A stretch of DNA of 32,360 nucleotides from Terriglobia bacterium (GTDB taxonomy: Bacteria > Acidobacteriota > Terriglobia > Terriglobales > Acidobacteriaceae), in NCBI GenBank assembly GCA_020073185.1, contig JAIQFT010000060.1:1-32360 (forward strand). The letters are read 5' to 3'. The notes under the pieces were generated by a model that was given only the letters and a program-made list of their open reading frames with translations, ran no database searches and was not told the DNA's origin. Position numbers and translations under genes: made by a program. Every line of letters starts with the position of its first letter. The first letter of the stretch is position 1. This document shows, one piece after another, positions 11,952-13,107 of this stretch.

Positions 11952-12272
11952 ATGAACGCTGATGATAAGCAAAGAGGAGCAACAACCCAATACTGGGTTG
12001 TCGGTCTATGCGCTCCGGCATTGGCTAGCCTTTTTCTCATCCTCACCGCTTCGGTCTGGTGGCGCAAAGAGACACTGACCGCCCGCGCCCTCAGTCTCTC
12101 TTGGGCTGTGTTGTCTGCAATTTCCCTTATTGGCATTGTTGCAGCAGTTGTGACTGCCATTGTTCAAACACGAAAGAGGTGGTCCTTGCACACGGCATTG
12201 TTCATGTGGTCGCTGATAGTGGTGGCAATTGGGGCCATCGCCTACAACTTTCATGTGATAAGTGGCGAATAA
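11952..12272 (+). CDS. Small membrane protein, about 106 aa
   Basis: Not recognised. Three hydrophobic helices are predicted: WVVGLCAPALASLFLILTAS, SLSWAVLSAISLIGIVAAVV, and TALFMWSLIVVAIGAIAYNF. Short basic loops (WWRKE, QTRKRW) lie between them. The first ten codons lie in a fragment of the dispersed repeat (CAACGCAGATGAACGCTGATG), and another repeat copy follows directly after the stop codon. The gene therefore sits between repeat pieces inside what would otherwise be a leucine-catabolism operon. The start is uncertain for that reason. A real gene is likely from the regular helix pattern. Confidence 0.55.
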   Translation: MNADDKQRGATTQYWVVGLCAPALASLFLILTASVWWRKETLTARALSLSWAVLSAISLIGIVAAVVTAIVQTRKRWSLHTALFMWSLIVVAIGAIAYNFHVISGE

Positions 12273-12276
12273 TGCA

Positions 12277-12296
12277 ATCCGCGTTCATCCGCGGCA
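12277..12296 (+). repeat. 20-bp direct repeat, left of the transposase cassette (repeat copy d)
   Basis: ATCCGCGTTCATCCGCGGCA occurs here and identically at 13088-13107, in the same orientation on the other side of the Y1 transposase cassette. It is part of the dispersed repeat family. Confidence 0.8.
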
Positions 12297-12364
12297 GATT
12301 GGAGAAACTCGGATTCGTCCGCGCGGCGGGAGCCTGGACCTGATCCCGCGTCCCCCGGGGACGC

Positions 12365-12394
12365 TTGATGGCAGCCCAGCGATTCATCGCTGGG
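12365..12394 (+). repeat. REP hairpin, left copy
   Basis: TTGATGGCAG followed by the palindrome CCCAGCGATTCATCGCTGGG (9-bp stem, 2-base loop). It is inverted to 12935-12964. Confidence 0.85.
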
Positions 12395-12416
12395 TACGCA
12401 ATCCCAAAACCCGGTC

Positions 12417-12435
12417 AGTCCGGCAGGACGGTTGA
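12417..12435 (+). repeat. Inner inverted repeat, left copy
   Basis: AGTCCGGCAGGACGGTTGA lies six bases before the transposase ATG. Its reverse complement recurs five bases after the stop codon with one mismatch. Confidence 0.8.
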
Positions 12436-12441
12436 AAAACA

Positions 12442-12888
12442 ATGCCGCATGCTCTCGTCAACAATCGCGTGCACGTGATCTTCAGCACCAAGGGACGGCA
12501 GAAGCTCATCCCGGAAGATCGCCGGCCCCGCTTATGGGCATTCATGGGCGGAATCGCCCGCAAAAATGGATTCACGGCGGTGGCCGTGGGAGGCACAGAC
12601 GACCACGCCCACGCCTTATTGGCGATTCCGGCCACCATGCCTCTGGCCAAGGCTGTACAACTGATCAAGGGCGGCTCCTCCAAATGGTGCAACGAGAATC
12701 TTCCATGCCGCTTTGCCTGGCAGGAGGGCTACGCCGCGTTGAGCGTGAGCGCGTCCCACAAGGATGCTGTCATGCGTTACATTTACAACCAGAAGGAACA
12801 CCATGCAAAACGCACTTTTGAGGAAGAACTGCTTCAGTTGCTAAAGAAGAGCGGACTCGATTTTGATCCCAATGACGTGTTCGGATGA
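12442..12888 (+). CDS. tnpA: Y1 (HUH) transposase, IS200/REP-associated type
   Basis: A 148-aa single-domain HUH nuclease, the normal size of IS200/IS605 TnpA and RAYT proteins. It nicks and rejoins single-stranded DNA at hairpin ends through a tyrosine-DNA link. NNRVHVIFSTKGRQ is the N-terminal strand pattern. The metal-binding HUH motif is DHAHALL (His55, His57). The likely catalytic tyrosine is Tyr113 in MRYIYNQKEHH. WQEGYAALSVSAS and TFEEELLQLLKKSGLDFDP follow the common C-terminal pattern. All key residues are present and the frame is intact, so it may be active. It is closely wrapped by two inverted repeats. No TnpB gene is adjacent. Confidence 0.88.
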   Translation: MPHALVNNRVHVIFSTKGRQKLIPEDRRPRLWAFMGGIARKNGFTAVAVGGTDDHAHALLAIPATMPLAKAVQLIKGGSSKWCNENLPCRFAWQEGYAALSVSASHKDAVMRYIYNQKEHHAKRTFEEELLQLLKKSGLDFDPNDVFG

Positions 12889-12892
12889 GTTC

Positions 12893-12911
12893 TCAATCGT
12901 CCTGCCGGACT
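12893..12911 (-). repeat. Inner inverted repeat, right copy
   Basis: TCAATCGTCCTGCCGGACT is the reverse complement of 12417-12435 at 18 of 19 positions. Confidence 0.8.
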
Positions 12912-12934
12912 CGAACGTAACTGTTGCATCTCTT

Positions 12935-12964
12935 CCCAGCGATGAATCGCTGGGCTACCATCAA
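12935..12964 (-). repeat. REP hairpin, right copy
   Basis: CCCAGCGATGAATCGCTGGG followed by CTACCATCAA. Inverted relative to 12365-12394, with one mismatch in 30. Confidence 0.85.
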
Positions 12965-12986
12965 TCGCCCTCCGGGCTTGGGGTGG

Positions 12987-13020
12987 TGAATCGCTGGGCT
13001 GCCTTCAATCGCCCTCCGGG
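12987..13020 (-). repeat. REP half-copy, direct repeat of 12943-12976
   Basis: TGAATCGCTGGGCTGCCTTC, then AATCGCCCTCCGGG. It matches 12943-12976 at 32 of 34 positions, 44 bases downstream. The first hairpin arm is missing. The rest of the gap up to the next gene holds GCCCTC.GGGCGTT repeats and no gene. Confidence 0.7.
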
Positions 13021-13087
13021 CGTTCCTTTGCCTTCGGTTGCCCTCGGGGCGTTACCTTACCCGCGGAATCGACGGAGCGGCATTGTG

Positions 13088-13107
13088 ATCCGCGTTCATC
13101 CGCGGCA
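13088..13107 (+). repeat. 20-bp direct repeat, right of the transposase cassette (repeat copy e)
   Basis: Identical to 12277-12296. It ends about 30 bases before the HMG-CoA lyase ATG. Confidence 0.8.

Follow-up and report, generated by a model that had tools for sequence, protein, structure and literature searches.

Insertion sequences of the IS200/IS605 type, such as IS608 and ISDra2, have ends that do not form inverted repeats, and the whole element travels with its gene. Proteins of the REP and IS200 kinds cleave single-stranded DNA that bears hairpins, at sites that are chosen by a tetranucleotide located 5' of the hairpin (PMC8266576). The survey of Quentin 2018 (PMC6006769) divides Y1 proteins into several classes, and its Table 1 enters subclass 1.2 with a "no" for REP and as occurring mainly in Cyanobacteria and Bacteroidetes. 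Class 3 TnpAY1 proteins are presented in the same paper as possible IS/REPtron intermediates that are found in Acidobacteria among others and are associated with high-copy atypical hairpins. Additionally, Di Nocera 2013 (PMC3733652) described TIRtrons, in which Y1 genes (TIRYTs) are accompanied by inverted repeats, also in Acidobacteria; 20 of those 26 TIRYTs are placed by Quentin 2018 in subclass 2.1 and the other six in subclasses 2.2 and 2.5. A further family with a bearing on this locus is the Rfam entry RF01687 (Acido-Lenti-1), which Weinberg 2010 lists as a probable RNA that is probably not cis-regulatory and that occurs in Acidobacteria and Lentisphaerae. According to the account in PMC13298647 (2026), little is known of Acido-Lenti-1 function, and a regulatory role is still under discussion, for instance next to Tannerella proteases. 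In the open-access journal literature searched, we found neither RF01687 nor subclass 1.2 tied to a transposase-associated repeat.

In this study we describe a Y1 transposase locus in a Terriglobia bacterium. The window, by which we mean the whole stretch of 32,360 nucleotides that was analysed, is contig C60 of a 4.66-Mb draft genome assembly (G000). Our preferred reading, to which we assign a probability of roughly three in four, is that a class 1 (subclass 1.2) Y1 transposase, flanked by cognate inverted units, forms a REPtron-like module here and moves these units while the gene itself stays. The intact HUH transposase frame reported by the initial annotation is confirmed, as the reading frame is whole and its product matches Pfam Y1_Tnp (E 1e-22). 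The protein also scores 59.6 bits with the NCBIfam IS200/IS605 model, which is above the cut-off of 55; it gives no match to NF047646, used here to judge RAYT membership, at E<=0.001, a level at which 43 of 54 aligned family members do match. Residues H55, H57, Y113 and Q117 show no variation across 54 aligned homologues, and the signature Y...Q..HH is present in 63 of the 68 distinct homologous genes taken from fetched loci. The predicted fold (pLDDT 94) lies nearest to ISDra2/IS608-type TnpA (Z 13.7-12.6), followed by TnpAREP 4er8 (Z 9.9), with unrelated rows of the comparison beginning below the latter at Z 8.2. A family profile searched against the PDB matches IS608, ISDra2 and similar TnpA at E 2e-16 to 8e-13.

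A tree of 55 Y1 proteins, including 38 of the 68 homologues, parts class 2 (the E. coli RAYT and five G000 genes) from class 1 at 100/100 and places the window protein in class 1, the IS200 side. Eight IS200-type proteins cluster at 83/75 in this tree; several long branches meet, and the tree gives no answer on whether the Y---Q--HH proteins form one clade beside the IS200-type proteins. By comparison with Table 1 of PMC6006769, the window protein is on its motifs a class 1 Y1 transposase of the subclass 1.2 kind, which it resembles in its 148 aa, WQ, Y---Q--HH, class 1 position and few divergent copies per genome, although its DHAH deviates from the DH[IV]H of the subclass. It differs from class 3 TnpAY1, which is described with NHVH, W[TA], YV[VI][AENY]EQ, a length of 178 aa and a CnGA foot. 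As a side observation, class 2 (RAYT-type) Y1 genes also exist in G000 (C96, C15, C40, C24 and C6).

The repeats that surround the gene were located as an inner 19-bp inverted repeat (12417-12435 with 12893-12911, 18/19) and an outer 30-bp inverted pair (12365-12394 with 12935-12964, 29/30). Both are where the initial annotation put them, and the inverted match, with a local score of 34.5, is above chance. Among 500 mononucleotide shuffles the score never exceeds 17.0, and among 289 sliding pairs taken elsewhere in the window it never exceeds 15.5. The extra REP half-copy that had been noted is likewise present (94% over 35 nt). What does not hold is their description as two nested inverted repeats, since the inner, outer and half repeats are all parts of one three-hairpin unit (model R1) that occurs on the left and, inverted, on the right of the gene (Table 1). 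Approximately 100 nt of the left flank has two gene-free copies in G000, in C50 (90%) and C9 (88%). The window's own sub-family has no gene-free copies in this genome beyond these two, a low number that counts against our preferred reading. The expectation that the repeats exist without the gene is borne out, and the refuting outcome named by the initial annotation, an absence of other genomic copies, did not occur.

Table 1. Features of the transposase locus, in window coordinates.
Feature	Position	Strand	Basis or remarks
Left three-hairpin unit, H3 facing gene	12347..12434	+	model R1, E 1.5e-10; gene-free copies G000:C50, C9
H1 of left unit, GCGTCCCC C GGGGACGC	12348..12364	+	sequence reading, model R1
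RF01687 match, H2-H1 half of left unit	12349..12394	-	35.6 bits, E 3.3e-6; gathering score 37
H2 of left unit, 20-nt palindrome, 5' foot GCAG	12375..12394	+	repeat analysis, model R1
H3 of left unit, GTCC GGCA GGAC, inside 19-bp repeat	12418..12429	+	repeat analysis, model R1
Y1 HUH transposase gene, 148 aa	12442..12888	+	HUH at H55/H57 (DHAH), WQ motif; Y113 in YIYNQKEHH is the presumed catalytic tyrosine
Right three-hairpin unit, inverted, H3 facing gene	12894..12980	-	model R1, E 3.6e-10
H3 of right unit	12899..12910	-	sequence reading, model R1
H2 of right unit, 5' foot GTAG on minus strand	12935..12954	-	repeat analysis, model R1
RF01687 match, H2-H1 half of right unit	12935..12978	+	36.8 bits, E 1.6e-6; gathering score 37
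H1 of right unit	12967..12977	-	sequence reading, model R1
Additional partial unit made up of half H2, spacer and H1	12987..13021	-	94% direct repeat of 12943-12977; in G002 too

The same unit accompanies many homologues of the gene. Its layout is H1, 12 nt, TAG, H2, 22 nt, H3, for a total of approximately 88 nt, with an inverted copy across the gene, and with H1 and H3 being hairpins of one kind in the same orientation. A strict detector that uses stem lengths and spacing alone was applied to the 136 flanks of 68 distinct homologous genes and found a unit, with H3 facing the gene, on 68 flanks (32/68 left and 36/68 right; 25 genes on both sides), as against 3/136 in the opposite orientation, 1/680 dinucleotide shuffles and 0/136 gene ends. 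The detector misses 36 of the 68 left and 32 of the 68 right flanks, including those of the window itself because its H1 and H3 lie outside the stem and loop limits. Among the 68 detected units, the H1-H2 spacer is 12-13 nt in 59 and the H2-H3 spacer is 20-23 nt in 59. The three bases immediately 5' of H2, which were not a selection criterion, are T in 58, A in 64 and G in 65 of 68; relative to the GT[AG]G foot of REPtrons, TAG is conserved and the first base is variable, the left and right units of the window having GCAG and GTAG, respectively. Pairing in the stems was followed in 35 units, on which model R1 was also built and which, except for the window's two, were picked for having stems so that percentages are biased upward; both sides of a pair have changed in 103 cells versus a shuffle mean of 27, and sliding the pairing partner abolishes pairing. 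When the left and right flanks of each gene are compared with one another, 41 of 68 have an inverted match that exceeds the 99th percentile of mismatched flanks. In 17 of 68 the direct match is above the control as well, in part because H2 is palindromic.

The presence of this unit distinguishes the locus from an ordinary IS200/IS605 insertion sequence with palindromes nearby that are there by chance or are unrelated. Such a reading has the NCBIfam match in its favor, yet it would have to accommodate a fixed three-hairpin unit that stands, inverted, to the left and right of the window gene and also beside many homologues, as well as an element that is single-copy, and we regard it as scarcely credible. 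The window protein does share with IS608 and ISDra2 the nearest folds and profile matches, and with IS200/IS605 the probable use of hairpin substrates with a 5' guide. However, the window gene has inverted repeats at its ends, and the element is present once in the G000 draft assembly.

We also observed that RF01687 Acido-Lenti-1 is the H2-H1 half of the unit, read on the other strand, with the same structure and sequence pattern. At Rfam default thresholds the window units are not reported (Table 1). At or above the gathering score, RF01687 occurs in 13 of 20 homologue loci versus none of 20 comparison loci; one of the latter (L112) holds the orthologue of the sister species G002 with its units, below gathering as in the window, and the other 19 are without a homologue at E 1e-3. 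The family is present in all five further loci that were chosen by hand, four with the gene and one without it. In whole genomes, RF01687 matches were obtained in 15 of 16 searched (11 of 16 over the cut-off) and in 0 of 14 controls, with a Desulfococcaceae genome having at least 149 matches among the best 150 scored and a Pedobacter genome having none. The catalogue treats this family as an sRNA, whereas at the loci studied here it lies within a DNA repeat that is linked to a transposase.

Given this identity, the unit could instead work as an RNA, be it the Acido-Lenti-1 sRNA, a UTR element or an attenuator, with its location beside transposase genes reflecting their regulation. The catalogue assignment by Weinberg 2010 points in this direction, the covariation of the stems suits RNA as well as single-stranded DNA, and many left units finish within approximately 10 nt of the start codon. 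A role as RNA is nevertheless improbable to us because the structure is also located downstream of the gene in inverted form, because there are approximately 100 copies with overlapping arrays, in one place inside a reading frame, and because sister species differ at 8 of 10 sites.

Analysis with R1 indicates that the units are widely dispersed. There are at least 108 units in G000 (among the best 150 of 1841 candidates scored), of which 98 are more than 1 kb away from all four class 1 homologues detected in this genome and ten are within 1 kb; they form 78 clusters, 60 of them single. In 1.6 Mb of G002 there are 59 units. Eight adjacent pairs have an overlap of 20-22 nt, with both members on one strand in seven cases, which amounts to one small hairpin being shared. 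The resulting arrays follow the pattern h-H2-h-H2-h with a period of approximately 68 nt, and H2 types are not alike within one array. A second family surrounds the paralogue in C8 (55% identity) and has its own dispersed repeats, with counterparts in G001 and G002. Copy number and the differences between species suggest that the units most likely have spread.

Units were found by R1 in 60 of 100 genomes, G000 included, and many of these attained the ceiling of 44 that were scored. All 39 genomes whose homologue reaches E<=1e-20, again counting G000, have units, as opposed to 21 of the other 61, with 40 being without; the corresponding Fisher p of 1e-12 is overstated since the genomes compared are related. 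At a looser E<=1e-3, units are present in 43 of 47 genomes, and the four that lack them have weak homologues only (best E 5e-13). The 21 genomes that contain units but no strong homologue count against a module formed by transposase and units.

Several individual loci deserve description. Some units, at L201, L204, L205, L214 and L221, lie inside an approximately 185-nt repeat with inverted ends GGCTYTGTTGA...TCAACARAGCC; no copy of this repeat without the unit, that is with the flanks joined, gave a contiguous match in 4 genomes. At G000:C12:76743-77377 a homologue is split over two frames with units on either side, so that the repeats' own gene appears broken, and the H2 of these units (CCCGGCAC..GTGCCGGG) is frequent among the best-scoring dispersed units. 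Beside the C8 paralogue (L023, G000:C8:79726-80720) and at L094, a short stretch resembling the end of the upstream gene recurs after each unit pair, as if the element and its neighbour had been duplicated in tandem.

Comparison among related species separates the behavior of the gene from that of the units. The window element is at the same site in G002, where the protein is 93% identical, and the best paralogue within the G000 draft assembly is 55% identical with no near-identical gene copies. Recent activity, which had been suggested on the basis of repeat identity, is thus not borne out as movement of the gene. In contrast, among 30 G000 unit loci examined, ten have both flanks in the 1.6 Mb of G002, and only two of these keep the unit while eight are without it. 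One of the eight is an array located within a reading frame of G000:C3 (L216). Compared with G002, 426 nt are added here without a frameshift, and neither species has the frame interrupted. At this locus the hairpin repeats are read as protein. The comparison of empty sites proposed by the initial annotation is accordingly clear as to the presence or absence of units, but it did not give exact ends at the C9 unit, at the window site or at the G000 sites compared with 1.6 Mb of G002; intergenic DNA is too diverged between the species.

These data also bear on whether the gene together with its inverted ends moves as one transposon, either TIRtron-like or composite, with gene-free units being deletion leftovers. 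The inverted ends themselves would fit, as would a gene-free left-right pair beside the C8 paralogue and the absence of the element beside both G001 copies of the neighbouring gene, one in C63 behind the same upstream gene and one in C160 behind a different upstream gene. A transposon of this kind is unlikely, however, considering that G000 is without near-identical gene copies, that most unit clusters are single (60 of 78, among the at least 108 units), and that the C8 paralogue is preceded by the same upstream gene in three species. As published, TIRtrons resemble the window locus in being Y1 genes with inverted repeats; their assigned subclasses are others, and the motif reported as shared by them, GGGGWSAS, is a different sequence.

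A pair of 20-bp direct repeats outside of all other repeats (12277-12296 with 13088-13107) had also been pointed out. These are indeed identical (20/20) and correctly positioned, but they are not target duplications: this candidate explanation is ruled out as the 20-mer is a member of another dispersed family (ATCCGCGTTCATCCGCGG), with 16 sites at <=2 mismatches in G000 versus 0 for a reversed control. The orthologous element in G002 is without the left copy. Upstream of the element there is also a 106-aa ORF (11952-12272), in a stretch that has no counterpart at the G002 site.

The unit is also found outside of Acidobacteria. A Desulfococcaceae locus has R1 units on both sides of the gene, two Verrucomicrobiota loci have a weaker R1 unit on one side (E 1e-4 and 1e-3), and a Melioribacteraceae locus has two more distant R1 units in the opposite orientation. 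A Persicobacter (Bacteroidota) plasmid gene gave no R1 report and has by eye a unit on both sides, with TTATTAG and AAATAG located 5' of an H2 of different sequence. Neither the two Bernardetia genes nor the Pedobacter locus gave an R1 match, and one of the Bernardetia genes has by eye a weak version of the unit at best. Among plasmids, three records contain a relative of P0001 at 1e-8, of which the one from Megaera was taken as an IS200-type protein; seven phage records match the Persicobacter protein weakly, and 242 pattern matches in viral contigs included no relative.

Taken as a REPtron-like module, the locus resembles class 2 TnpAREP/RAYT systems in that inverted hairpins both flank the gene and are dispersed without it, and in that there are no near-identical gene copies; a TAG-type foot precedes the hairpin too, though with a first base that varies relative to the REPtron foot. 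It differs from them by having a class 1 protein with Y...Q (YIYNQ) in place of Y...NP, and an approximately 88-nt three-hairpin unit in place of one hairpin or a doublet. The RAYT-like inverted layout around an IS200-like protein that was originally noted therefore stands, with inverted units on both sides and a class 1 position in the tree. The accompanying idea of a bridge between IS200 and RAYT stands in part: the layout is RAYT-like but the protein is not a RAYT. The description of subclass 1.2 is of genes without REP or IS200-type structures beside them, whereas cognate three-hairpin units flank the genes here, on both window sides and on 68 of 136 flanks, in acidobacterial genomes and at single loci of other phyla. 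These units bear on the description of the subclass and not on membership of the protein in it.

From the H2 foot, together with the paired small hairpins of the same orientation at the unit ends, we infer that units are moved in single-stranded form by the class 1 protein, which would be a RAYT-like way of working and not membership of the RAYT class. In such a mechanism the protein would bind the unit hairpins where DNA is single-stranded, in all likelihood on the lagging-strand template, and the TAG that precedes H2 would serve as a guide foot as is the case for REPs and IS608 ends. Tyr113 would then cut, and units would be moved or copied, while the transposase gene would stay put between its inverted pair and be inherited vertically. 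A narrower version, which we hold only tentatively, is that Acido-Lenti-1, instead of being an RNA gene, is DNA on which a separate REP system acts, one that arose on the class 1 (IS200) side of the Y1 family. The mobile entity would be the approximately 68-nt stretch from H1 to H3, which has end hairpins of the same kind and orientation like IS200 ends; it might be excised as a tiny single-stranded circle that then inserts next to a further hairpin of this kind. Hairpin-sharing arrays would arise in this way, with the inverted pair anchoring the gene.

If the locus is indeed a REPtron-like module, then it would provide a likely origin for the orphan Rfam family RF01687 as well as a repeat partner for a Y1 subclass that has been described without one. 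It would also mean that a resident transposase is combined with dispersed hairpins not on one side of the IS200/RAYT split alone but on both, and the units constitute defined DNA substrates with which this can be tested.
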